Assembly: GCF_950100655.1 (NCBI RefSeq)
Contig: NZ_CATNLY010000001.1
Location: 310,001-374,000, forward strand
DNA from: Pleomorphomonas sp. T1.2MG-36
GTDB lineage: Bacteria > Pseudomonadota > Alphaproteobacteria > Rhizobiales > Pleomorphomonadaceae
Length of the DNA stretch: 64,000 nucleotides
Reading direction: 5' to 3'
Below are positions 13,794 to 26,762 of the stretch, in pieces. The notes beneath the pieces are model-generated. The model was not told where the DNA came from. It did no database searches and saw only the letters and a program-made list of their open reading frames with translations. The translations under genes were made by a program, and so were the position numbers. The number at the start of each line of letters is the position of its first letter. The stretch's first letter is position 1.

Positions 13794-15308
13794 TTAGTTC
13801 TTCTTGGTTTCTTCCAGGAAGAAGCGGCCGAGCGGGTTCTGGTCGAAGTTCTCGATGTTCGAGCGAGACACGTTGCGGTAGGGGCTGTAGTAGAGATCCA
13901 CCCAGTTGACGTCGTCCTTCGCCATCTTCTGGAGATCGACGTACATCTGCTCGCGCTTCTTGGGATCCATCTCGACGCGGGCGGCGGCAACCAGATCCTT
14001 GACCGCCGGATTGTTGTAGCGGGTCATGTAGTTCATGTTGCTGTCGTGGCCGAGCACGAAGGTGGTCTTCTGGTCCGGGTCGAGCACGTCGTTGGTCCAG
14101 TACATGACGGATATGTCGTAGTCGCCGTCGATCAGCATGTTCCAGCTCTGGCTCGGATCGACCTTCTGGAGATCGACCGTGACGCCGGCCTTGGCAAGCT
14201 GCTGCTGCAGGAGAACGGCGATCTGCTCGTCGACCTCGTCGCCGGCATTGACCACATAGTTGAGCTTGAGATTGGCCGCGCCGGCGTCGGCCAGCATGGC
14301 CTTCGCCTTCTCCGGATCGTAAGGCCGCTGGAGATTGTCGGCGTAGTGGTAGAGGGCACCCTTCGGAATATAGGAGTAGGCCACCTGGCCGAGACCGAAG
14401 GTCACGGCATCGACGATCGCCTTCTTGTCGATCGCCATATCCAGCGCCTGACGCACTTCCTTCTTGGCGAGCGCGCCGTGCTCGTGGTTGATGAGGAGGT
14501 GATCCTCACGCGTCGAAGTGTCCAGATGGATCTTGAGGTTGGGATCCTTCTGAAGCTCGGCGATGCGGGAGAACGGCACGAAGATCGCCGTGTCGATCTC
14601 GCCGGCCTGCACCTTCAGCATGCGCGTGTTGTCGTCGGGAATGGAGATCCACTCGACGCCATCGAGGCTGACATTGGCGGCGTCCCAGTATTCCGGGTTC
14701 TTGACCAGGATGACGCGATCGCCGCGCCGCCACTCCTTGACGGCAAAGGCGCCCGAGCCGATCGGCGTCTCGCCGAAGGCTTCTTCACCCATTTCCTCGA
14801 GCGCCTTCTTCGGCAGCACCGACACGTTGGGCAGGGCCAGCGACGACAGGAAGGGCGCCGACGGTCCGGTCAGCTTGACGACCAGCGTCTTCGGATCAGC
14901 GGCCGTGGCCGTATCGACGATCTTGTAGCTGTCGGCCCACAGTGAGCCGGGGTTGTCGCGGATGCGCAGGATCGAGAAAGCGGCGTCATCCGCCGTCACC
15001 GGGTCGCCGTTGGAGAACTTGGCGTCGCGCAGCTTGAAGGTATAGGTCAGGCCGTCGTCGGAAATGGTCCAGCTTTCGGCAAGGCCGGGGATCAGCTTGG
15101 TACCGGTCTTGTCGACGCGGACCAGCACGTCGAACACGTTGGAGAACACCCAGTTGTCGACGTTCTGAGCGGTCTTGATCGGGTCGAAGGTCGTGCCGTC
15201 CTCGCGGCGGCCAATGGTGAGGACGCCGGCAGCCTCGGCGATCGAAGCCCCGAAAATAAGTGTGGCGAGAACGGTCGCCACGCTGAGTTTGGTCCACTTT
15301 GCGGTCAT
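13794..15308 (-). CDS. ABC transporter substrate-binding protein, family 5 (peptide/opine type)
   Basis: A periplasmic binding protein (504 residues) of the DppA/OppA cluster that should capture a peptide-like or amine solute for the permeases encoded upstream. A signal peptide ends at about residue 26 (ASIAEA). The family patterns FDPIKTAQNVDNWVFSNVFDVLVR and LIPGLAESWTISDDGLTYTFKLR are clear. AAGGGA precedes the start. It is the last gene of a minus-strand operon headed by an iminopeptidase-like gene, 22 bases after the ATPase gene. By context the ligand may be the plant-derived signal or a nutrient sensed by the divergent LuxR-type regulator (inference). Confidence 0.92.
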   Translation of the reverse strand: MTAKWTKLSVATVLATLIFGASIAEAAGVLTIGRREDGTTFDPIKTAQNVDNWVFSNVFDVLVRVDKTGTKLIPGLAESWTISDDGLTYTFKLRDAKFSNGDPVTADDAAFSILRIRDNPGSLWADSYKIVDTATAADPKTLVVKLTGPSAPFLSSLALPNVSVLPKKALEEMGEEAFGETPIGSGAFAVKEWRRGDRVILVKNPEYWDAANVSLDGVEWISIPDDNTRMLKVQAGEIDTAIFVPFSRIAELQKDPNLKIHLDTSTREDHLLINHEHGALAKKEVRQALDMAIDKKAIVDAVTFGLGQVAYSYIPKGALYHYADNLQRPYDPEKAKAMLADAGAANLKLNYVVNAGDEVDEQIAVLLQQQLAKAGVTVDLQKVDPSQSWNMLIDGDYDISVMYWTNDVLDPDQKTTFVLGHDSNMNYMTRYNNPAVKDLVAAARVEMDPKKREQMYVDLQKMAKDDVNWVDLYYSPYRNVSRSNIENFDQNPLGRFFLEETKKN

Positions 15309-15330
15309 GTCGAGTTCCCTTCTGGTTATC

Positions 15331-17043
15331 TTATGATGCTTCGTCCGTGATCAGTCCGGACGTTCCTTCGGCCAAAGCGTCCCCAGCCCTTGGAGACAAG
15401 AGCGGCTTGTCCGGATCGATATCCGGAATGGCGCCGATCAGCGCCCGCGTGTAGGCCTCTCGCGGCGCGGCGAAAACCTTGTCGGTCGGCCCCTCTTCGA
15501 CGATCTCGCCGTGGTACATCACCACCACCCGTTCGCAGAGGCTGCGGACGATGGCGAGATCATGGGCGATGAACAGCAGCGTCAGATTGAGTTGCCGCTT
15601 GAGATCGCGGAAGAGGTCGACGATCTGCGCCTGGATGGTGACGTCGAGCGCCGCGACGCACTCGTCGGCAACGATCAGCTTGGGATTGACCGCCAGAGCC
15701 CGCGCGATACCGGCGCGCTGGCACTGGCCGCCGCTCATCGACAGCGGCTTACGGTGCGCGAACTCACGCTCCAGGCCGACGAGATCGAGCAGTTCGCCGA
15801 TGCGTTCGGGTATCCGCTCCTTCGGCACGCTTTCCTGCACGGCCAGCACTTCGGCCAACATGGCGCCGATGGTGAGACGCGGATTGAGCGCGTTGTAGGG
15901 GTCCTGGAACACCATGGCCGTCTCGCGGCGTAGCTTCCTCAGCGCCTTTGCCCGCTCGGTGACGATGTCGGCCCCATCGAAGGCGACGTGTCCGTCGGAA
16001 ATCGGCGTCAGGCCGAGCAGCGCTCGCGCCAGCGTCGACTTGCCGGAACCGCTCTCGCCGACGATGCCCACCGTCTCACCGGGCATCACCTGCAGGCTGA
16101 CGCCCTTCACGGCCGAAAACTCACGCGGACCACCGGCGAACAGGGCTCGACCGGTGACCGGAAAGCGGACATGAAGATCGTCGATCTCGACGAGCGGCCG
16201 CGCCTTGGAGGCGGCATGATCTTGGACGACGATGGGCGCTGCCTGCCTTGCCGGCATCGACGGATGAGAGGCGATCAGGTTTTGGGTGTAGGGATGCTGC
16301 GGCCGACCCAGCACATCGCGCTTGTCGCCGGTCTCCAGCAGCCGCCCTTGCCGGAGCACGGCGATGCGGTCGCAGGTCTGGGCGACGATGCCAAGGTCGT
16401 GGGTGATCATGATCACCGACAGGCCTCGGCTTTCCCGGAGGTCCATCAGCAGCTTCAGGATCTGCGCCTGGATGGTGACGTCGAGCGCCGTAGTCGGCTC
16501 GTCGGCGATCAGGATGCGCGGATCGCAGGATAGCGCCACGCCGATCATCGCTCTTTGGCGCATGCCGCCAGAGAACTCGTGCGGATAGCCATTGTACTGC
16601 CGGGTCGGGTGCGGAAACCCCACCTGTTCCAGGATCTCCAGCGCCGCCGCCCTCGCCTCCTTGCCGTCGACGCCGCGATGGACGCGGATGCCCTCGGCGA
16701 TCTGGTCGCCGATGCGCATCAGCGGATCGAGATGGCTGGTCGGATTCTGGAAGATCATGCCGATGTCGCGGCCACGCACCGCGCGGATCTCGGCTTCCGA
16801 CGCCTTGGTAAGATCGCGGCCGTCGAGCGTCACCGAGCCAGAGGTGATCGCCAGCTTGGGCGACGGCATCAGCCGCACCAGCGACCGACAGGTCAAGCTC
16901 TTGCCCGAGCCGCTTTCGCCGACGAGGCCGAGGATCTCGCCCTTGCCGAGGTCGAAGGACACGGTGTCGATCAGCGTGCGCGGACCATCCTCGCCGGAGA
17001 AGACGACGCTGAGGTCGCGGACGGAGAGCAGCGTCTCGCTCAT
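15331..17043 (-). CDS. fused dual-ATPase of a peptide-type ABC importer (DppD-DppF like)
   Basis: One 570-residue polypeptide holds two complete nucleotide-binding domains that are separate proteins (DppD and DppF) in E. coli. The first has Walker A GESGSGKS and signature FSGGMRQRAMIG. The second has GESGSGKS and MSGGQCQRAGIARAL. Each has the family-specific C-terminal segment (RPQHPYTQNLIASHP, APREAYTRALIGAIPDI). The frame is open upstream, but ATG 17043 overlaps the permease stop by 4 bases (ATGA), which fixes the start and implies translational coupling. Confidence 0.94.
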   Translation of the reverse strand: MSETLLSVRDLSVVFSGEDGPRTLIDTVSFDLGKGEILGLVGESGSGKSLTCRSLVRLMPSPKLAITSGSVTLDGRDLTKASEAEIRAVRGRDIGMIFQNPTSHLDPLMRIGDQIAEGIRVHRGVDGKEARAAALEILEQVGFPHPTRQYNGYPHEFSGGMRQRAMIGVALSCDPRILIADEPTTALDVTIQAQILKLLMDLRESRGLSVIMITHDLGIVAQTCDRIAVLRQGRLLETGDKRDVLGRPQHPYTQNLIASHPSMPARQAAPIVVQDHAASKARPLVEIDDLHVRFPVTGRALFAGGPREFSAVKGVSLQVMPGETVGIVGESGSGKSTLARALLGLTPISDGHVAFDGADIVTERAKALRKLRRETAMVFQDPYNALNPRLTIGAMLAEVLAVQESVPKERIPERIGELLDLVGLEREFAHRKPLSMSGGQCQRAGIARALAVNPKLIVADECVAALDVTIQAQIVDLFRDLKRQLNLTLLFIAHDLAIVRSLCERVVVMYHGEIVEEGPTDKVFAAPREAYTRALIGAIPDIDPDKPLLSPRAGDALAEGTSGLITDEAS

Positions 17044-17876
17044 TCGCGTACCCCCAGGAGATCGCCAAGACCATCGCCGGTCAGAGAGAAGCCGAAGGCC
17101 AGCGTCACGATGGAGAGCCCCGGAAACAGTGTGATCCACCAGGCCGTGGTGATGAAGCTCTGCCCTTCCGCCACCATCACGCCCCACTCGGCGATCGGCG
17201 GTTGCACACCAAGGCCGAGGTAACTGATGGCCGCGCCGGACAGCAGCACCAGCACGCAGTCGGACATCGAGAACACCACCGAACCGGCAATGGCGTTGGG
17301 CAAGAGGTGGCGGAACATGATGCGCGGCCCTGAGAAGCCGAGACTGAGCGCCGCCGTGGCGTAGTCGACCGTCTTCAAGACCAGCATCTGCGCCCGGATC
17401 AGCCGGGCGTAGGACACCCAGCCGACCAGTGCCATGGCGATGTAGAAGCTCTGAAGCCCCGGCCCAAGAATGGCGATGATGGACAGCATCAGCACCAGGA
17501 AGGGAAAGGCGAGGATGATGTCGATGATGCGCATGAAGACGATGTCGACCTTGCCGCCGAGATAACCGGCGATCGTGCCGACCGTCGTCCCGATCAGAAA
17601 GGGAAAGAGGACACCGATCACCGCGATCTGCAAGTCGACGCGCGTGCCCCAGATGACGCGGGAGAAGATATCGCGGCCGAAGTTGTCGGTACCGAACGGA
17701 TGCGCCCAGGATGGCGCCTGGAGACGCAGGTCGCCATTTTGCAGGATCGGATCGTAGGGTGCGACGATCGGCGCCAGCAGTGCGATGACGACGAACAGGG
17801 CGAGCAGGATCAGGCCGGCCAGCAGTGTGGGCCGCTGGCGGACCGCCTTCCAGGCCGGAGCGAACGCGGCGGTCAT
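17040..17876 (-). CDS. peptide-type ABC permease, DppC-like
   Basis: An inner-membrane permease of 278 residues with about six helices and the cytoplasmic EAA-type loop YATAALSLGFSGPRIMFRHLLPNAI that docks on the ATPase. The N-terminal pattern PYDPILQNGDLRLQAPSWAHPFGTDNFGRDIFSRVIWGTR is a clear DppC/OppC signature. It overlaps its neighbours on both sides by 4 bases (17040-17043 and 17873-17876), as expected in a tight transporter operon. Confidence 0.94.
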   Translation of the reverse strand: MTAAFAPAWKAVRQRPTLLAGLILLALFVVIALLAPIVAPYDPILQNGDLRLQAPSWAHPFGTDNFGRDIFSRVIWGTRVDLQIAVIGVLFPFLIGTTVGTIAGYLGGKVDIVFMRIIDIILAFPFLVLMLSIIAILGPGLQSFYIAMALVGWVSYARLIRAQMLVLKTVDYATAALSLGFSGPRIMFRHLLPNAIAGSVVFSMSDCVLVLLSGAAISYLGLGVQPPIAEWGVMVAEGQSFITTAWWITLFPGLSIVTLAFGFSLTGDGLGDLLGVRE

Positions 17877-18811
17877 TGCTTCACCCTCGGGTCGATGGCG
17901 ACGGTGACGATGTCGGCGATGAAGTTCACCAGCACCGTGGCGCAGGCGAACACCATGGCAACGCCCTGCACCACCATGTAGTCGCGCGAGAAGATGGCGC
18001 GGACGAGCAGTTGGCCCATGCCCGGCAGCGCGAACACGCTTTCGACGACGACGGTGCCGCCGATCAGCCAGCCGATGTTGACGGCCAAGAGATTGACTGT
18101 CGGCACCAGCGAGTTGGGCACGACATGTCGCCAGAAGACGATGCTCTCCGGCATGCCGCGCGCCCGTGCCGCCGTGGCGAGGTCGCCCTTCAGCTCGGCG
18201 ATCATCGCCGTCCGAAGGGAACGGATCAGCACGGTCGACAGCGACAGCGCGATGGTCAGCGATGGCAGGATCAGATGATAGAGCTTGTCGGCAAGATTCT
18301 CGCCGTAGCCGGAGACCGGGAAGAGGTCGAGCCGCACCGAGAAGAAGATGATCAGCATCAGCGCCAGCCAGAACGGCGGGAATCCGATGCCAAACGTCGA
18401 AATGAAGCGCACGATGTGGTCGGCCGGCCCACCGTTCGATCGCGCCGCCAGCGAGGCGAGCGGCACGGCGATGATCAGCGACAGCAGCACCGCCGAAAGC
18501 ACCAGCGCCAGCGTCGGCTCGATGCGCGTCGTGATCAGCCTCAGGACGTCGATCTTGTACAAGATCGACTTGCCCATCTCGCCGTGGGCGAGGTTCTGGA
18601 GAAAGTAGAAGTATTGCAGCCAGATCGGCTGATCGAGCCCGTACTGGGCACGAATGGCCGCGATGGCCGTCGGCGTCGACTTGGTGCCGAGCAGCACGCG
18701 CGCCGGATCGCCTGGGATGAGACGCACCAGGACGAAGGTGATGACGCTGATGCCGAACAGCACCGGCAGGAACTGCAAGGGGCGATAGAGGACGAACTTA
18801 TACCGGTGCAT
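17873..18811 (-). CDS. peptide-type ABC permease, DppB-like
   Basis: A 312-residue inner-membrane permease of the DppB/OppB group. It starts with RPLQFLPVLFGISVITFVLVRLIPGDPARVLLG and has the EAA loop DLATAARARGMPESIVFWRHVVPNSL. It forms the channel with the DppC-like protein that follows. GGAAG precedes the ATG. It begins 45 bases after the stop of the iminopeptidase-like gene, so the hydrolase and transporter probably share one transcript. Confidence 0.94.
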   Translation of the reverse strand: MHRYKFVLYRPLQFLPVLFGISVITFVLVRLIPGDPARVLLGTKSTPTAIAAIRAQYGLDQPIWLQYFYFLQNLAHGEMGKSILYKIDVLRLITTRIEPTLALVLSAVLLSLIIAVPLASLAARSNGGPADHIVRFISTFGIGFPPFWLALMLIIFFSVRLDLFPVSGYGENLADKLYHLILPSLTIALSLSTVLIRSLRTAMIAELKGDLATAARARGMPESIVFWRHVVPNSLVPTVNLLAVNIGWLIGGTVVVESVFALPGMGQLLVRAIFSRDYMVVQGVAMVFACATVLVNFIADIVTVAIDPRVKQ

Positions 18812-18856
18812 TGCGGCTTCCGGACTGGGGAATGAGTGTCATTGGCGGGACAGGCG

Positions 18857-19747
18857 TCATCGCTGGCTGTGTTTCCCGAGGAAAGCAAGGAGCGCCGGAT
18901 AGTAATCCCCCGGGTTCTCGTAGAACGGCATATGGCTGGAGTTGGCGAACACCTTGAGGTCGGCATCGGGCAGATGCAGCTTCATGCGAAGCGCACAGGC
19001 CGGGGTCAGCTCGTCATGCTCGCCGCAGGTGATCAGCGTCGGCGCCGTGATCTTGCAGAGGTCGGGAACGCGATTCCAGTCCTTGAGGTTGCCGGTGTAG
19101 AGGAACTCGTTGGGACCTTGCATGGTGCCGTATGGCCCCATGTTCCAGTCCGATAGCGACCGCGTGACGGGCGCCGGCCAGTCCTTCAGGCGACAGACGT
19201 GGCGATAGTTGAGCAGCGTGATCGCCGCCATATACTCGGGATGATCGATGGTTCCGGCTGCCTCGTGCGCCTGCATCATCGCCACCGTCTCGGAGCCGAG
19301 CGCGCCGCGCAGGCGTTCGAGCTCGGTGATGAGGTGCGGCATGTCGGCGACGGTGTCCTCGAGGATCAGCGTCTTGAGCGCATCCGGATAGGTCAGCGCA
19401 TAATCGATGGCCAGCCAGCCACCCCATGAGTGGCCGAGGAAATGCACCTTGCCGAGGCCGAGCGCCTTGCGCACCGTCTCGGTTTCCTCGACATAGCGGC
19501 CGATCGTCCAAAGGCCGGGATCGGTGGGCCGGTCGGATGCACCGGTGCCGAGCTGATCGAAGGCGACGACCCGAAAGCCGTGATCGATCAAACACGAGTG
19601 GGCGTCGCGGAGGTAGTCGCAGGGAAGGCCCGGGCCGCCGTTGGCGAGAAAAACCACCTCGTCGCCGGTGCCGAACTCATAGGCGACGACGTCGTGGCCA
19701 TCCACCTTCACCACATGCTTGGCATCCGGGGCGATTTCCCGCCACAT
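18857..19747 (-). CDS. proline iminopeptidase-like alpha/beta hydrolase (operon leader)
   Basis: An S33-type alpha/beta hydrolase of 296 residues with no signal peptide, so cytoplasmic. The nucleophile is Ser107 in GHSWGG, with probable Asp245 (GEHDELTP) and His272 (NSSHMPFY). The family's oxyanion motif HGGPG reads NGGPG (36-40). It is the first gene of the operon that continues with the peptide-type transporter, so it likely hydrolyses the imported compound. It is divergent from the LuxR-type regulator. Genes called pip next to plant-responsive LuxR solos (XccR, OryR, PipR) form a known association. The real substrate may be an amide rather than a Pro-peptide. Confidence 0.88.
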   Translation of the reverse strand: MWREIAPDAKHVVKVDGHDVVAYEFGTGDEVVFLANGGPGLPCDYLRDAHSCLIDHGFRVVAFDQLGTGASDRPTDPGLWTIGRYVEETETVRKALGLGKVHFLGHSWGGWLAIDYALTYPDALKTLILEDTVADMPHLITELERLRGALGSETVAMMQAHEAAGTIDHPEYMAAITLLNYRHVCRLKDWPAPVTRSLSDWNMGPYGTMQGPNEFLYTGNLKDWNRVPDLCKITAPTLITCGEHDELTPACALRMKLHLPDADLKVFANSSHMPFYENPGDYYPALLAFLGKHSQR

Positions 19748-19782
19748 GGTCGATCTCCGCGATCCGATTCAAAGCCCACGAT

Positions 19783-19819
19783 TTGAGCGTGATCAAATTT
19801 TGGCTGAATTGACGCTCAA
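19783..19819. promoter_or_regulatory. inverted repeat between divergent pip-ABC operon and luxR
   Basis: Perfect 8-bp arms TTGAGCGT (19783-19790) and ACGCTCAA (19812-19819) are separated by 21 bases. The element begins 36 bases before the iminopeptidase start and ends 86 bases before the luxR start, well placed to control both. It differs from the classic 20-bp lux box by its wider spacing. A role as operator of the LuxR-type protein is inference. Confidence 0.45.
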
Positions 19820-19863
19820 CACCAGCTATTAGAAGTGATAGGGTCTGGCCGATGGAGGAGCCT

Positions 19864-19897
19864 AAAGCCGCCGTCCGAGGGGCTTTCACTCCGGAGT
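19864..19897 (+). promoter_or_regulatory. hairpin and RBS-containing palindrome before luxR
   Basis: AAAGCC (19864-19869) pairs with GGCTTT (19881-19886). It is followed at once by the 10-bp palindrome ACTCCGGAGT (19888-19897), which contains the GGAG ribosome-binding site nine bases before the luxR ATG. RNA folding could hide the site and lower basal translation. Confidence 0.35.
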
Positions 19898-19905
19898 AGC
19901 TATAG

Positions 19906-20688
19906 ATGCCCGTCGACATCGCCGCCGTGAGAGAGCGGCTCGCTATCAAGACCGGCCTGGAAGGATGTATCGACCAAGCCTTCGACATGATGAAGGGCTT
20001 TGGCTTCGACGCGCTCATCTACGACTACACGCCGGTGCCCTACGACGTCGACGGCAGCATGAACATTCCCTCGCTCCTGAAGCTCAGGAACGTGCCCGAG
20101 GACATGCATGAATATTGGTGCGGACGAGGCTACTTCCGGTTCGATCCGGTTCAGCAACTGGCATTGCGGACATCGACGCCCTTCTTCTGGAACTACGACC
20201 GCGACGCCGACACGGCGATCCGCCGCTATCTCTGCGACGATAGCCGCCCGGTGGAAAGCTATCTCAGGGATCGCGGCCTGACGTCGGGCGTCACGGTGCC
20301 GGTACACTTGCCGCGCGGGGACTACGCGACCGTGACGGGCGTTCGCTTCGGCGCCGATGCAGATTTCCAGCAAACCGCCGAAGGCGCCATCGCCGACTTC
20401 GGCCTTCTCGCCCACCTGTTCCACGAGACGGCCTATTCGGCCTTCGACGCGCCGGCCCGCATCGGCGCCATCCCGCGCCTGACCGACCGGGAGCGAGAGT
20501 GCCTGCGCCATTCCGCCGAGGGACTTTCCGCCAAGGAGATCTCGCGCATCATCGACCGATCGGTACCGACGGTGGTGATGCATCTCAACTCGGCGATCCG
20601 CAAGCTCGGCGCCCGCAACCGCACCCAGGCCGTGGTGCGCGCCATCCATTATCGGCTGCTCGACGGACCCCAGACCTATAACTTCTGA
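19906..20688 (+). CDS. LuxR-type solo regulator, plant-signal (OryR/PipR-like) class
   Basis: A 260-residue transcription factor with an N-terminal autoinducer-binding domain (about 15-170) and a C-terminal LuxR helix-turn-helix (about 190-250: LTDRERECLRHSAEGLSAKEISRIID). Aligned on RGYFRFDP with TraR, Asp70, Pro71, Trp85 and Gly113 are kept (here Asp80, Pro81, Trp95, Gly128). TraR Trp57 is Met67 and Tyr61 is Trp71. Those two changes define LuxR solos that respond to plant compounds instead of acyl-homoserine lactones. No luxI gene is present in the window. Iminopeptidase-like genes on both sides fit the same class. The ligand is unknown. PipR of Pseudomonas responds to an ethanolamine derivative. 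Confidence 0.93.
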   Translation: MPVDIAAVRERLAIKTGLEGCIDQAFDMMKGFGFDALIYDYTPVPYDVDGSMNIPSLLKLRNVPEDMHEYWCGRGYFRFDPVQQLALRTSTPFFWNYDRDADTAIRRYLCDDSRPVESYLRDRGLTSGVTVPVHLPRGDYATVTGVRFGADADFQQTAEGAIADFGLLAHLFHETAYSAFDAPARIGAIPRLTDRERECLRHSAEGLSAKEISRIIDRSVPTVVMHLNSAIRKLGARNRTQAVVRAIHYRLLDGPQTYNF

Positions 20689-20754
20689 TAGCTGCTGCTC
20701 AGCTTTTCGCCGCGCTATGTTTTTGCCCAACGCATATGCAGCGGAGGGTGAAGA

Positions 20755-21654
20755 GTGGTGGACGTCGTGGAAGGATTTGCGCCCTTTGGCGCTTATGAAA
20801 CGTGGTTTCGCGTCAGCGGCTCCCTGTCGTCTCCTCGTCTGCCGCTGATCGTCGCCCATGGCGGTCCGGGCTGCACGCACGATTACGTCGACAGCTTCAA
20901 GCGCATCGCCGATCTCGATGGCCGCGCCGTCATTCACTACGACCAGCTCGGCTCGGGCAACTCGACCCATCTGCCCGACAAGGGCAAGGACTTCTGGACG
21001 ATCGAGCTGTTCCTCGACCAACTCGACGCCCTTCTGTCCCATCTCGGCATCGCCGACCGCTACGCCTATCTCGGCCAGTCCTGGGGCGGCATGCTCGGCG
21101 CTGAGCACGCCGTGCGCCGGCCAACGGGCCTCAAGGCGCTGATCATCGCCAACTCGCCGGCCAACATGCACACCTGGGTGAGCGAGGCCAATCGGCTGCG
21201 GGAGCAACTGCCGCCCGAGGTGCAAGCCACGTTGTTGAAACACGAAGCGGCCGGAACCATCACCCACCCCGATTACGTCGCGGCATCCAGGGTGTTCTAC
21301 AACCGGCACGTCTGCCGCCTCGAACCCTGGCCGAAGGAGGTGAGCCGCACCTTCGAGCTGATGGACCTCGACAATACCGTTTACATCAACATGAACGGCC
21401 CCACCGAATTCCACGTCATCGGCACGATGAAGGACTGGACGATCGAAGATCGCCTGCCGCTGATCAACGTGCCGTCCCTGCTGATCTCCGGCAAATACGA
21501 CGAGGCGACGCCCGAGGTGGTCCGTCCCTACGTCGAGAAAGTGCCCGGTATCCGCTGGGTGCTGTTCGAGCATTCGAGCCATATGCCGCACGTCGAGGAA
21601 GAGGCGAAATGCCTCGCGACCGTGTCGGACTTCCTGAAGTCGGTGGAGGGCTGA
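20755..21654 (+). CDS. proline iminopeptidase-family hydrolase (second copy)
   Basis: A cytoplasmic S33 hydrolase of 299 residues with an intact HGGPG motif (35-39). The nucleophile is Ser109 in GQSWGG, with Asp249 ([10 protein letters not shown]) and His276 (HSSHMPHV). It lies 66 bases downstream of luxR in the same direction and starts at GTG with GGAGGG six bases upstream. It shares the HEAAGTI...HP segment and overall plan with the hydrolase at 18857-19747 but differs widely elsewhere, so it is a divergent paralogue rather than a recent duplicate. It probably acts on the same or a related imported amide. Confidence 0.9.
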
Positions 21655-21819
21655 CACACCAGCGCTTTCGCCCTCCGCAAAAGTGGAGCCAGCCACCCGG
21701 AGGGCTATACCGCCCTCGCCTTTCGCAATGCCGCAGCGGAAGCGAGGGCGGATCCATGTGTAGAATGGGCAATCCGGCCTCTCCGCCGGCGAGTCGCCGC
21801 CAACGTTCGAGGACCGACC

Positions 21820-22512
21820 ATGACCTGGAAGACAGCCCGCCGCTCCTTTTACTACGACGGTGCCCCGGAACCGCTGGACCCCGTGCTCATCGCCGGCAAG
21901 GTGGCGCTGCTCGTCATCGACGTGCAGAACGTCTATCTCGACCGCCCCGATCCTTCGACGCTGACCGGCGAGGACCTCGCCCGCTATCACGCCTGGACGC
22001 CATTTCATGAGCGCATGCATGGCACGGTGATCCCGTCGATCGCAAAGCTGCTTCAAAGCTTCCGCGGTCGCGGTCTCGACGTGCTCTATGCCCGCATCGC
22101 CGCGTTGCGCCACGATGGACGCGATCGATCGCTGAGCCAGAAAAAGCCAGGCTGGAACGACCTTTTGCTGCCCAAGGACGAACTGCCGTCGCAGATCGTG
22201 CCGGCGATCGCCCCCGAAGGCGACGAAATCGTCGTCACCAAGACTACCGACAGCGCGCTGACGGGCACCAATCTCCGTCTGGTGCTTGCCAACCTCGGCA
22301 TCACCCACGTCGTCTGTTGCGGCATCTTCACCGACCAGTGCGTCGCCTCGACGGTGCGCAGCCTTGCCGACGAGAGCTTCGACGTCATCGTCGCCGAGGA
22401 TGCTTGCGCGGCCGGCACTATGGACATGCACGACCGAGAGCTGGAAATCATGAACATGATCTACTGCTCGGTGATGAGCAGCGACGAGGTGATCGGCTAC
22501 CTGCCGGCCTGA
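21820..22512 (+). CDS. isochorismatase-family amidohydrolase
   Basis: A cysteine hydrolase of 230 residues with the Asp34 (VIDVQN), Lys141 (VTKTTDSAL) and Cys174 (GIFTDQCVASTVRSL) triad. Several enzymes of this fold split amides, ureides or carbamates. It follows the second iminopeptidase-like gene by 165 bases on the same strand, so it may be the last catabolic step of the LuxR-solo locus. That link is inference from position. Its N-terminal 25 residues extend past the core fold. The next gene, ugpC, is convergent. Confidence 0.87.
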   Translation: MTWKTARRSFYYDGAPEPLDPVLIAGKVALLVIDVQNVYLDRPDPSTLTGEDLARYHAWTPFHERMHGTVIPSIAKLLQSFRGRGLDVLYARIAALRHDGRDRSLSQKKPGWNDLLLPKDELPSQIVPAIAPEGDEIVVTKTTDSALTGTNLRLVLANLGITHVVCCGIFTDQCVASTVRSLADESFDVIVAEDACAAGTMDMHDRELEIMNMIYCSVMSSDEVIGYLPA

Positions 22513-22520
22513 GCGCGACC

Positions 22521-22547
22521 GGCGGCTCAATCATCGGGAGAGCCGCC
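22521..22547. terminator. hairpin between convergent genes
   Basis: GGCGGCTC (22521-22528) pairs with GAGCCGCC (22540-22547) across an 11-base loop, just after the isochorismatase-family gene and overlapping the end of ugpC. No T-tract follows, so efficiency is uncertain. Confidence 0.45.
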
Positions 22548-23583
22548 TGCCGCTTTCTCCGTCGAAGAAATGCAGCCGGTCGGCGGCGACCACCACACGC
22601 ATCTCGTCGGCAAGCGGCAGGTCCGGCGACAGTGCCATGGTGAGGTGCATCCCCTCGACCGAGCCGTGAACCAGCCGCTGCGCTCCGAGTTCCTCGACAT
22701 AGCGGACGGAGAAAGGCACGCCGGTACCGGAGGCCGCCGGATGAATATCCTCGGCCCGCAAACCGATGGTCAGCCGGCCGTCCTTGATGCCGGCCACCCC
22801 GCTCGCGATCATCTGCCCGCCGATGGCCACGGCGCCTCCGGTCACCTTGGCATCGGCAAGGTTCATGGCCGGCGAGCCGATGAAGCTCGCTACGAAGGTC
22901 GATGCTGGGTTGTGATAGACATCGAGCGGTCGGCCGACCTGCTCGATGCGCCCGCCGTTCAGCACCACGATCCGATCGGCCAGCGTCATCGCCTCAAGCT
23001 GGTCGTGCGTCACGTAAACCGAGGTGACGCCGAGCCGGCGCTGCAACTGGCGAATCTCGCCACGCATCGAGACGCGCAGCTTGGCGTCGAGGTTGGAGAG
23101 CGGCTCGTCGAACAGGAAGGCATCCGGCTTGCGCACGATGGCGCGCCCCATGGCGACGCGCTGCCGCTGACCGCCTGAAAGCTGCTTCGGCTTGCGCTGG
23201 AGGAAGGGCTCGATTTCCAGCATGCGCGCCGCCTCGGCTACCCGGGTGTCGATGTCCGCCTTGGGTACGCCGCGGTTCCTGAGGCCATAGGCAAGGTTGT
23301 CGTAGACGCTCATGTGTGGATAGAGCGCATAGTTCTGGAACACCATAGCGATGTTGCGGGCCGCCGGGTCGATCTCGTTGACCACCCGGCTGCCGATGGA
23401 GACGGTCCCCGAGGTGATCGTCTCAAGGCCTGCGATCATCCTGAGCAGCGTCGACTTGCCGCAGCCGGACGGCCCCACCAGCACGATGAACTCGCCATCG
23501 GCGATCGACAGGCTGACGTCGGAGACGGCCCGGACGCCGCCGGCGTAGAGCTTGCTTACGGCGGCGATTTCAATGGCGGACAT
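22531..23583 (-). CDS. ugpC: sn-glycerol-3-phosphate ABC transporter ATPase UgpC
   Basis: A cytoplasmic ATPase (350 residues) of the carbohydrate-uptake-1 family that energises the UgpAE permease. It has Walker [10 protein letters not shown], signature [16 protein letters not shown], Walker [16 protein letters not shown] and a C-terminal regulatory TOBE domain (from about 240). The frame is open upstream inside ugpE. ATG 23583 is used because it starts the conserved [17 protein letters not shown] segment and lies 2 bases before the ugpE stop. It is the last gene of ugpBAEC. Confidence 0.92.
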
Positions 23584-23585
23584 GC

Positions 23586-24434
23586 TCACTTCTCCGTTTC
23601 GATCAGGCCCTTGACGAACAGCCGCTGCATGCCAACCACCACGATGACCGGCGGCAGCATGGCGAGCACGACGGTGGTCATGACGACGTTCCATTGGGGC
23701 AAGGCGTCGGCCACGTCCGACATGCGCTTGATGCCCATGACGATGGTGTAGTGGTCCGATGTTGTGGTGACCATCAGCGGCCAGAGATACTGGTTCCAGC
23801 CGTAGATGAAGAGGATGACGAACAGCGCGGCGATGTTGGTGCGGCTGAGCGGCAGCAGTATGTCGCGGAAGAACTTGAGCGGCCCTGCCCCGTCGATGCG
23901 CGCCGCCTCCATCAGTTCGTCCGGCACCGTCAGGAAGAACTGCCGAAACAGGAAAGTGGCGGTTGCCGAGGCGATCAGAGGAATTGTGAGGCCCGCGTAG
24001 CTGTCGAGCAAACCGAGGTCGGCCACCACCTTGAACGTCGGCACGATGCGCACCTCGACCGGCAGCATCAGCGTGACGAAGATCATCCAGAAGGCGACCG
24101 CCCGGAAAGGAAACCGGAAATAGACGATAGCGTAGGCCGACAGGATCGAGATGACGATCTTGCCGAAGGCGATCGAGAGAGCCATCACCAGCGAGTTCCA
24201 CAACATGCCGCCGAGCGGCGGCGCGCCCGAACTGGAAAGGCCGTCCGTCAGCATCGAGCGATAGTTGGCTACCATTTCGCCGCCGGGCAGCAGAGGCACC
24301 AAGCCCGACATGAAATCGTTGGGGCCATGCGTCGAGGCGATCACGGCGACATAGACGGGAAAGGCGACGATCAGGATGCCGGCGATCAGCACAGCATGGG
24401 CAAGCGCGTCGAGCCAGGGATGGCGATCGATCAT
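23586..24434 (-). CDS. ugpE: sn-glycerol-3-phosphate ABC permease UgpE
   Basis: An inner-membrane permease (282 residues, six helices) of the MalG/UgpE type. The ATPase-docking loop [30 protein letters not shown] is clear, and [29 protein letters not shown] resembles UgpE. It pairs with UgpA. GAGGAT precedes the ATG, and the gene starts 10 bases after the ugpA stop. Confidence 0.92.
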
Positions 24435-24444
24435 GGCCGGATCC

Positions 24445-25329
24445 TCAATAGGTTACCTTGCGCTCGACCCATTTGAACTGGATCACCGTCAGCGCAACGA
24501 CGATGGCCATCAGCACCACCGACTGCGCGGCGGAAGAGCCGAGGTTGAGGCCTATGAAGCCGTCGACGAACACCTTGTAGACGAGGATGTTGGTCGACTG
24601 GGCCGGATTGCCGCCGGTGGTGGCGTGGATCACCGGGAAGGTGTCGAACATCGCGTAGACGAGGTTGATGACGGCGAGGAAGAAGGTGGTGGGTGACAGG
24701 AGCGGGAAGACGATGGTGAAGAAACGCTTCACCGGCCCGGCGCCATCAATGGCCGCCGCCTCGATCATCGACTTCGGGATCGCCTGCAAGCCCGCTGTGA
24801 AGAACAGGAAGTTGTAGGAAACCTGCTTCCAGCTGGCGGCGATGACGACCAGGATCATGGCGTCGGTGGGCTGCAGCGCGTGATCCCAGCGATAGCCGAC
24901 CGCGGCAAGCAGATAAGGCAGCAGACCGATGGTCGGATTGAACAGAAACCACCACAGGATGCCGGCGACGGCGGGCGCGACCGCATAGGGCCAGACCAGG
25001 AGCGCGGCGTAGACGCGGCCGCCGCGAACGAGCCGGTCGAGACTGACGGCGAAGACAAGACCGAGCCCCACGGACAGCAGCGTTACCGCCGGCGCGAAGA
25101 TGGCCGTCACCTTCAACGAGTTGAGATAGGTCGGCTCCTGAATAAGGTCGGCATAATTGGTGAGACCGACCCATGTCGTGGACAGACCGAAGGCATCTTC
25201 GCGCTGGAAGGACTGAAGAACAGCCTGGGCCGCCGGCCACAGGAAGAAGACGACGGTCACTGCGATTTGCGGCAAAAGGAGCGCATAGGGCAGCAGGCGG
25301 TTGCCGAAAACGGTGCGCTTGGTCTGCAT
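24445..25329 (-). CDS. ugpA: sn-glycerol-3-phosphate ABC permease UgpA
   Basis: A permease of about 294 residues, recognisable along its full length as Ugp[24 protein letters not shown] near the start, then [19 protein letters not shown] and [26 protein letters not shown] 25329 gives MQTKRTVFG, matching the start of known UgpA. The frame extends to 25383 without a better ribosome-binding site. It follows ugpB after a gap that contains a strong hairpin. Confidence 0.92.
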
Positions 25330-25388
25330 GAAGGAAACCGGATCGAGAAGCGCGGATGCGGCATATCCTGCCGCCATCCGCAAGAAGG

Positions 25389-25420
25389 CCGGCGCCGAAC
25401 GGGAAGCCCGTCAGCGCCGG
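25389..25420 (-). terminator. hairpin between ugpB and ugpA
   Basis: CCGGCGC (25389-25395) pairs with GCGCCGG (25414-25420), with an inner CGGG/CCCG stem. On the minus strand it is followed by CCTTCTTGC. Such a structure commonly stabilises or partly terminates the abundant binding-protein mRNA so that it exceeds the permease mRNA. Confidence 0.5.
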
Positions 25421-25442
25421 ATTTAACGGGGAAAAGGCGGGG

Positions 25443-26762
25443 TCAGCCGTTCGCGGCGCGGAAGTCGGCGATCAGCTTGTTGCCGCGCGTCACGACGGAG
25501 TCGAGCGCCTCCTTCGGAGCCTTCTTGCCGGCCAGCAGATTCTGGAACTCCTCGTCGATCACGTCACGAATCTGCACGTAGTTGCCGAAGCGCAGACCCT
25601 TGGAGTTGTCGGTCGGCGGATTGAGGGTGATCTGCTTGATGGCGACGTCGGAGCCGGGGTTCTTGGCATAGAAGCCCTGCTCCTGGCCGAGCTTGTAGGC
25701 CGCCGCGGTGATCGGCAGATAACCGGAATACTGGTGCCAGTCGGCCTGCACTTCCGGCGACGACAGGAAGGTGAAGAAATTGGCGACGCCCTTGTACTCG
25801 GCGTCGTTATGCCCCTTCAGCACCCACAGCGTAGCGCCGCCGATGATCGAGTTCTGCGGCGCGCCCTGCACGTCGGAGTAATAGGGCAGCATGCCGAAAC
25901 CGACCTGGAAATCCTTGGAGTTGGCGATCACGCCGGCGCGCGAGGCCGACGAGTTCATGTAGATCGCGCATTCCTGGCTGTAGAACTTCGGCGGCGCGTC
26001 GTTGCCGCCGGCCGGACCGCCATACTGGAACAGTCCCTCGTCCTGCCACTTCTTGAGATTGGTCCAGTGACGGACCTGCAGGTCGCCGTTGACGGTCAGC
26101 TCGGCGTCCGCGCCGCCGATACCGTTCTGGAGGGTGCCGATCGGCTTGTTGTGCCAGGCCGACAGGTTCTCGAGCTGCAGCCAGGAGATCCAGCCGGTGG
26201 TGAAGCCGCACTTGGCGGCACCCGACGACATGATCTTCTTCGAATAGGCTTCGACGTCTTCCCAAGTTTTCGGCGGCTGCTCGGGGTCGAGCCCAGCCTT
26301 CTTGAAGACATCCTTGTTGTAGTAGAGGATCGGCGTCGAGGAGTTGAACGGCATCGACAGCATGTTGCCGTCGGCGTCGGTGTAGTAGCCGACCACGGCC
26401 GACAGGAACGCCTTGGGATCGAAGGCGGCACCGGTATCCTTCATCAGCTGGTAAACGGGATAGACGGCGCCCTTTGCCGCCATCATCGTACCCGTTCCCA
26501 CTTCGAACACCTGAACGATGTCGGGCTGCTGCTTGGCGCGGAAAGCGGCGATGGCGGCCGTCATGGTCTCGGGATAGGAGCCCTTGTAGACGGCCGTTAC
26601 CTTGTACTCGTCCTGCGAGGCATTGTACTTGGCGACGATTTCGTCGAGCTTCTTGCCGAGCTCGCCGCCCATGGCGTGCCACCAGGTGATTTCGGTAGCG
26701 GCAAAGGCGGAACCGGACATGAGGGTCAAGGCTAGTCCGGCGATGAGGGACCGCGTCAGCAT
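25443..26762 (-). CDS. ugpB: sn-glycerol-3-phosphate-binding protein UgpB
   Basis: A periplasmic binding protein (439 residues) with signal peptide MLTRSLIAGLALTLMSGSAFAA. The start of the mature part, EITWWHAMGGELGKKLDEIVAKYNASQ, is diagnostic of UgpB, as are YKGSYPETMTAAIAAFRAKQQPDIVQVFEVGTGTMM and MPFNSSTPILYYNKD. It binds sn-glycerol-3-phosphate or glycerophosphodiesters, a phosphate and carbon source. It is the first gene of ugpBAEC, and phased GTCA repeats like a Pho box lie about 53 bases upstream. Confidence 0.94.
   Translation of the reverse strand: MLTRSLIAGLALTLMSGSAFAATEITWWHAMGGELGKKLDEIVAKYNASQDEYKVTAVYKGSYPETMTAAIAAFRAKQQPDIVQVFEVGTGTMMAAKGAVYPVYQLMKDTGAAFDPKAFLSAVVGYYTDADGNMLSMPFNSSTPILYYNKDVFKKAGLDPEQPPKTWEDVEAYSKKIMSSGAAKCGFTTGWISWLQLENLSAWHNKPIGTLQNGIGGADAELTVNGDLQVRHWTNLKKWQDEGLFQYGGPAGGNDAPPKFYSQECAIYMNSSASRAGVIANSKDFQVGFGMLPYYSDVQGAPQNSIIGGATLWVLKGHNDAEYKGVANFFTFLSSPEVQADWHQYSGYLPITAAAYKLGQEQGFYAKNPGSDVAIKQITLNPPTDNSKGLRFGNYVQIRDVIDEEFQNLLAGKKAPKEALDSVVTRGNKLIADFRAANG

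Follow-up and report, generated by a model that had tools for sequence, protein, structure and literature searches.

Which compound is sensed, and what becomes of it, at a locus where a LuxR solo stands among a peptide-type importer, two iminopeptidase-like hydrolases and an isochorismatase-fold hydrolase? The question is raised by a 64-kb stretch (C1:310001-374000; hereafter the window) of the 5.2-Mb genome of Pleomorphomonas sp. T1.2MG-36. Here, luxR is followed on its own strand by pip2 and by the gene for the isochorismatase-fold hydrolase, termed ISO, while pip1 and the transporter genes are read in the opposite direction. In all likelihood, this locus is a plant-signal module of the PipR/NesR type, combining import of a compound, its sensing by LuxR, activation through promoter boxes and feedback by hydrolases, with ISO as a later addition. 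Near-identical 20-bp boxes face pip1 and pip2, and ISO apparently moved into the module from a cluster encoding a Pot-type importer, an APH-like kinase and a class III phospholyase. The parts of the module in the window are as follows.

13794..15308, minus strand: AapF-type periplasmic binding protein of family 5 (SBP_bac_5; PF00496, 336 bits)
15331..17043, minus strand: fused dual ABC ATPase of OppD-OppF type, 570 residues (two ABC_tran and two oligo_HPY stretches)
17040..17876, minus strand: OppC/NikC-like permease (family matches)
17873..18811, minus strand: OppB/NikB-like permease (family matches)
18857..19747, minus strand: PIP1, a hydrolase of the iminopeptidase subfamily, placed as AapA is (TIGR01250, 257 bits; cutoff 168)
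19823..19842, minus strand: predicted LuxR box facing PIP1, CCTATCACTTCTAATAGCTG (exact pattern match)
19906..20688, plus strand: LuxR solo of the type found in plant-associated bacteria (PAB), PipR/NesR class (Autoind_bind PF03472 and GerE PF00196)
20675..20694, plus strand: predicted LuxR box for PIP2, running across the stop codon of luxR, CCTATAACTTCTGATAGCTG (exact pattern match)
20755..21654, plus strand: PIP2, a hydrolase of the iminopeptidase subfamily, placed as PipA is (TIGR01250, 265 bits)
21655..21819, plus strand: PIP2-ISO spacer, 165 bases long and containing two inverted repeats of hairpin type (at 21660-21751)
21820..22512, plus strand: ISO, isochorismatase-fold hydrolase (PF00857, 114 bits)

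A LuxR solo within a probable import and hydrolysis module

Coordinates and family searches bear out the gene order and the divergence from luxR given in an earlier sequence-only reading of this DNA. The pip1 gene, two Opp-type permease genes, the fused ATPase gene and the binding-protein gene form an operon with 4-base overlaps at two junctions (permease/permease and permease/ATPase); the other two junctions are gaps, 22 and 45 bases long. To place the locus among its relatives, named genomes were scanned with an alignment of 14 luxR sequences, and the best 80 of 197 relatives were kept; the loci were thus chosen by luxR. PIP1, both permeases, the ATPase, LuxR and PIP2 are encoded in the same order in all 80. 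Because the order of both pip genes and both permease genes recurs throughout loci found by luxR, the arrangement is not a product of chance. The binding protein is present in 79 loci, the exception being L012, where the contig ends; contig ends also cut the ATPase of L012 and the PIP2 of L069. Apart from L012, the fused ATPase is split only in L045 and L046 and is one continuous match in the other 77 loci.

Broader sampling supports this picture. The sequence-only reading had set a gene-neighbourhood comparison as its check, and co-occurrence was found: in a sample of 397 genomes of the order, luxR is present in 24 (E <= 1e-30), the binding protein turns up in 25 (E <= 1e-120), and 24 genomes have both. 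The remaining genome, G015, carries a binding protein of 52% identity without luxR; its locus (L140, 1959-8865) has two pip1-like genes and a transporter 50-61% identical, with no LuxR match in the stretch. A sample of 398 genomes of the phylum yielded luxR in 12, and 11 of 14 genomes of the genus hold a luxR of this type, the nearest protein being that of Pleomorphomonas sp. PLEO (93%). Larger stretches were laid out for 11 more distant luxR genomes. Among these, luxR is flanked by both PIP1 and PIP2 in six, and the ATPase match is fused in three and in two pieces in six. PIP1 is missing from L149 and also from L141 and L151 of genus g74, where luxR, PIP2 and the transporter are collinear; four other g74 loci, seen as short stretches, agree as far as visible. 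L150 has LuxR and PIP2 with weak transporter matches, and L146 (9982-10740, in G712) encodes a LuxR of 51% identity with neither pip nor transporter genes within ~9 kb.

The importer and the regulator both carry the marks of known plant-responsive systems (the papers cited here and below are represented by parts of their text). In comparison with the Protein Data Bank (PDB), the best solved relative of the binding protein is AapF (7kz8/7kz9; 804 bits, E 5.6e-241), the next structure scoring only 168 bits (E 3.2e-48). With this AapF-family binding protein, the linked type-I peptide ABC importer and a predicted pip box upstream of a pip gene, the locus has the features by which a PipR-Aap module is recognized. 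In LuxR, an alignment with the RhlR and LasR structures and 13 relatives puts M67 and W71 at the positions of TraR W57 and Y61, whose replacement by M and W marks plant-associated LuxR solos (PMC10134790). Similarly, Q83, V116 and L120 correspond, by our own offset mapping, to PsrR positions 83, 115 and 120, where PAB LuxR proteins have Q, V and L/M as their specificity patch (PMC7301841). Domains, pocket, patch, a neighbouring pip gene and the lack of a linked luxI together place the protein in PAB class D (OryR/PipR/NesR).

PIP1 (motifs GHSWGG, GEHDEL, SSHMPF and GPNEF) and PIP2 retain the serine, aspartate and histidine motifs and GPxEF, score above the TIGR01250 cutoff and align with iminopeptidase structures. 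The best PDB match of PIP2 is 7a6g (E 1.3e-142), which we take to be an L-proline amide hydrolase.

A resemblance to Pseudomonas PipR loci had already been suggested, and it is made firmer by the AapF-family binding protein, the plant-type pocket, the two flanking peptidases and the promoter boxes. As in the PipR-Aap-PipA system of Pseudomonas sp. GM79, a LuxR solo lies between two iminopeptidase-family genes, divergent from an aap operon with an AapF-type binding protein (PMC4981722). Unlike GM79, which has two separate genes for the nucleotide-binding domains, the window encodes a fused ATPase, and ISO is an extra gene after pip2. The NesR locus, which in Sinorhizobium meliloti and Rhizobium relatives represents class D / subgroup 0 (PMC10134790), is a second close counterpart. 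In S. meliloti 4H41 (L061), the layout and both boxes are the same, and identities reach 79% for the binding protein, 81% for PIP1, 67% for LuxR and 77% for PIP2; unlike the window, this locus has no ISO within 10-kb flanks.

A pair of predicted LuxR boxes

The same 20-bp element occurs twice in the module, at the luxR-pip2 junction (CCTATAACTTCTGATAGCTG) and in the pip1-luxR divergent region (CCTATCACTTCTAATAGCTG). This pairing is conserved throughout the window and the 80 loci (n=81, mostly Rhizobiaceae and hence not independent). Measured against CCTATAACTTCTGATAGCTG, the junction box has 0-3 mismatches and the divergent box 2-4 in all 81 loci, and in every one of them both boxes point toward their pip gene. 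Coding cannot account for the conservation of the junction box, since the luxR reading frame covers only half of it. Moreover, CT(N12)AG is invariant in both sets; this is the signature given for las and pip boxes (PMC4471428). A scan with the generic pattern CTGN8-12CAG returned 23/81 and 5/81 and was uninformative, and a scan for consensus promoters and terminators stayed at background (1 vs 1.3 expected and 5 vs 4.6).

Spacing also follows the known system. With PIP2 starts placed by alignment, the junction box of the window has its centre at -71.5 relative to the PIP2 start. The corresponding value falls within -67.5 to -78.5 for 79 of the 81 loci, the outliers being L055 (-89.5) and L044 (-145.5); the GM79 pipA box is likewise centred at -71.5 (PMC4981722). 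The divergent box lies at -85.5 from the PIP1 start, unlike the upstream box of GM79, which is at -91.5 and overlaps pipR (PMC4981722). A TATG at offset 41 from the start of the junction box in 76/81 loci would bring that box to about -43, hardly different from the usual lux-box position of -42.5 (PMC4471428).

Across the whole 5.2-Mb genome, the box pattern has exactly two perfect matches, both at the module. A wider LuxR regulon was rejected: allowing up to three mismatches adds just two sites (one with 2, one with 3), which is background, the reversed control pattern having given 8. The confinement of exact boxes to the module predicts a local regulon of two sites at one locus, in which ISO would be reached only via pip2. 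Among the 11 distant stretches, both boxes appear at full strength in L144 only, L143 and L150 being partial and L142 and L147 marginal (chance matches in the 64-kb window score up to 10.4). Between the divergent box and the start of PIP1, at 19770-19800 of the window, there is a second, dyad-like element (TTGAGCGTGATCAA), which has a counterpart in several rhizobial loci (TTGCTCAA..TTGAGCA-like); it is possibly another operator.

ISO and its home cluster

The sequence-only reading had treated the second hydrolase and the amidohydrolase alike as extra catabolic steps. For PIP2 this view fails, as it is the standard downstream pip gene of all 80 loci; only ISO is extra, a genus-level addition found in 9 of the 80. 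All nine are Pleomorphomonas-type loci, with ISO after pip2 each time, and ISO as a standard part of the module was rejected with none in the 71 loci outside this type. Furthermore, each of the 11 module-bearing genomes of the genus has one ISO match (E <= 1e-15), within ~1 kb of the luxR-pip2 unit. The protein has the motifs VIDVQN, VTKTTDS and TDQC. It fits no NCBIfam family, its highest score among biuret hydrolase, RutB and other isochorismatase-fold families being 69 bits where the cutoff is 370, and its solved relatives are remote (best PDB match 58 bits).

The usual home of ISO in Hyphomicrobiales is a different one. Orthologues (E <= 1e-50) occur in 50 of the 397 order genomes, 11 as module copies and 39 elsewhere. 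When the 39 non-module loci were laid out to ~9.5 kb per side (eight shortened by contig ends), a Pot-type importer was found in 22, an SDR in 24 and an APH-like kinase in 19, ten of these with a class III phospholyase as well. The thresholds for these partners were fixed after 14 of the 39 loci had been seen; at these thresholds, no partner match appeared in 20 control stretches, each taken from a different one of the genomes concerned. The full Pot importer-SDR-phospholyase-kinase cluster is seen in L138 (3884-12998) and, in the genome studied here, at G000:C23:242970-251400 (L246), and the phospholyase is present in 13 of the 14 genus genomes. Among class III pyridoxal phosphate enzymes, the cluster phospholyase is nearest to phospholyases: of solved structures, 5g4i, a phospholyase, scores 375 bits, 6tor, an ethanolamine-phosphate phospho-lyase, 337 and the next one 181, a comparison that does not separate ethanolamine phosphate from hydroxylysine phosphate as substrate. 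The best solved relative of the kinase is 6ef6, called an aminoglycoside phosphotransferase (262 bits). The cluster looks like one for hydroxyamine utilization; ethanolamine is hinted at as its substrate, and a hydroxylysine-phosphate enzyme could look alike.

That ISO left this cluster for the module is suggested by two lines of evidence, namely, that module-bearing congeners retain the cluster without ISO and that module ISOs fall beside the copy of a congener whose ISO is still in place. In this congener, G370, luxR and the binding protein are absent, and ISO closes the Pot-importer operon. There, unlike in the module, it adjoins a Pot permease gene and a DeoR regulator gene, with no such LuxR or pip gene in the stretch. 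ISO is absent from the 12 other clusters of the genus (the 11 module-bearing genomes and G243), and in all ten that cover both the permease and DeoR genes it is missing from between them. In a tree of 49 proteins (window, nine module loci and 39 others), the ten module ISOs form a clade (100/98) inside the cluster-type copies, sister to the ISO of G370 (94/90, slightly below the strict mark of the tool). Identity to the orthologue is 81% in G370 and ~80% in the sister genus (G010). The 39 non-module copies divide into a nearer group of 27, in which four have no partner at all, and a more distant one of 12, in which eight have none. The simplest account would be that ISO joined the module once, in a common ancestor of the species that have it, and that G243 later lost the block. 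This genome lacks luxR, the binding protein and ISO, and its PHY-like and chemotaxis genes are ~0.6 kb apart, as opposed to 13.7 kb in the window. G203, which lacks luxR, ISO and the phospholyase, is not explained further by this account.

The surroundings of ISO vary. Over ten loci (the nine and the window), the PIP2-ISO spacer measures 9-38 bases in four and 116-165 in six; inserts similar to that of the window are present in L006, L007, L011 and L012; L009 carries another kind, and L004, L005, L008 and L010 have none. The hairpin-bearing spacer has no second strong copy in the genome, and a dispersed repeat was accordingly rejected. Convergent with ISO is a sugar-type ABC operon (22531-26762, with a UgpC-like ATPase), whose ATPase gene adjoins the module in eight of the nine Pleomorphomonas-type loci and whose region is gone together with the module block in G243. 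Membership of this transporter in the module is unlikely, given that its ATPase gene is apart in L008 and that its close homologue does not occupy this position in the rhizobial loci.

The signal and its fate

In Pseudomonas sp. GM79, the response depends on the transporter, is triggered by leaf macerate and grows stronger when the peptidases are lost; pipA is activated by PipR by way of its box (PMC4981722). Import and breakdown of the sensed compound are thus already a published model, and because the same loop is the most likely one here by homology, the mechanism proposed in the sequence-only reading is largely known. By analogy, the fused ATPase would power the uptake of a small amide- or peptide-like plant compound by way of the AapF-type binding protein and the Opp-like permeases, and this compound would bind LuxR in the cytoplasm. 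The LuxR dimer would then occupy the two near-identical boxes and activate both the pip1-transporter operon and pip2, and PIP1 and PIP2 would destroy the ligand or a derivative of it, which would close a feedback loop. This loop would be more catabolic in Pleomorphomonas, where ISO is presumably co-transcribed with pip2 and probably cuts the same ligand or its product. The ligand need not be HEHEAA, the ethanolamine derivative to which PipR responds (PMC10134790).

Other readings of the regulator and the transporter differ in how well they fare. LuxR might be a receptor for acyl-homoserine lactones (AHLs) supplied by the genome itself: the regulator is a solo in having no linked luxI, as the sequence-only reading had it, but the genome is not luxI-free, with a single match on contig C54. 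Moreover, the S. meliloti nesR promoter is reported to be bound by ExpR/AHL (PMC5977203), and Pleomorphomonas oryzae has already been grouped among autoinducer-1 (AI-1) listeners (PMC11069264). Such a role is nevertheless highly improbable and was discarded on account of the plant-type M and W in the pocket and because luxI has a region of its own, ~10 kb from the one further Autoind_bind LuxR of the genome (G000:C54:55897-67002); in addition, the module comes with an importer of its own. Ordinary scavenging of peptides or amides, with a nutritional transporter and pip hydrolases that LuxR merely tunes to supply and no plant signalling, is unlikely rather than remote. It would suit the LuxR-less transporter locus of G015, the prediction of no targets beyond the module and the induction of GM79 PipR by peptone and a tripeptide (PMC4981722), but it sits poorly with the plant-type class of the LuxR pocket and the reaction of GM79 to leaf macerate (PMC4981722).

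For ISO, the alternative is that its place beside pip2 is accidental and its function unrelated to the LuxR ligand. This bystander role is a serious contender, though not the favoured one: ISO is missing from 71 of the 80 loci, has an orthologue without the module in G370, has no box of its own, and is separated from pip2 by a long hairpin-bearing spacer in six of ten loci including the window. Against it, ISO is retained after pip2 in all nine Pleomorphomonas-type loci and near the luxR-pip2 unit in all 11 module-bearing genus genomes, is absent with the whole block in G243, still adjoins the module in L008 where the sugar transporter does not, and follows pip2 after 9-38 bases in four of ten loci. 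If ISO is a functional part, its origin hints at a hydroxyamine-type (ethanolamine-like) amide as the ligand. A more specific proposal can be made only tentatively, being on balance doubtful: that ISO came from a hydroxyamine, probably ethanolamine, cluster, that the signal is an N-(2-hydroxyethyl)amide such as HEHEAA, and that ISO or PIP1/PIP2 would free ethanolamine for consumption by the kinase and phospholyase encoded elsewhere in the genome.

Several observations weigh against the plant-signal reading of the module or the ligand class that it suggests. PipR retains tryptophan at the TraR W57 position, where LuxR here has methionine (PMC4981722), and of four positions that contrast PsrR with PipR (PMC7301841), K59 and H68 are PipR-like and V63 and M67 PsrR-like by our mapping with a one-residue offset; with only two of four PipR-like, the ligand may differ from that of PipR. 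In the available text of the respective papers, Kosakonia PsrR gave no response to HEHEAA, ethanolamine or root macerate (PMC7301841), saponarin and 2-benzoxazolinone are listed for PsoR (PMC10134790), and the transporter protein for HEHEAA has a close homologue that fails to bind this compound (PMC10134790). The putative Kosakonia pip box differs in sequence from the box here (PMC7301841), and no box stands clearly above background in the distant stretches L141, L145, L146, L148, L149 and L151. The lack of a box before ISO and the 165-base hairpin-bearing spacer of the window count here too, as do the 12 of 39 non-module ISO loci without any cluster partner.

In the literature searched, which left most subscription papers outside and was represented in part by excerpts, no description of the Pleomorphomonas module, the box pair or the ISO relocation was found, nor anything relevant tying a phospholyase, an isochorismatase and a phosphotransferase together. 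The ligands of plant-responsive LuxR solos are mostly open: as far as the accessible text shows, Table 1 of PMC10134790 has nine class D proteins and names compounds for two, PipR (HEHEAA) and PsoR. A relocated amidohydrolase offers a different type of evidence, pointing toward hydroxyamine amides, and the box pair makes the predicted regulon directly testable at two sites of one locus. If the proposed reading is true, a short list of compounds could be tested in reporter strains, and in Pleomorphomonas a plant-sensing circuit would have been turned into a pathway that eats the plant signal.

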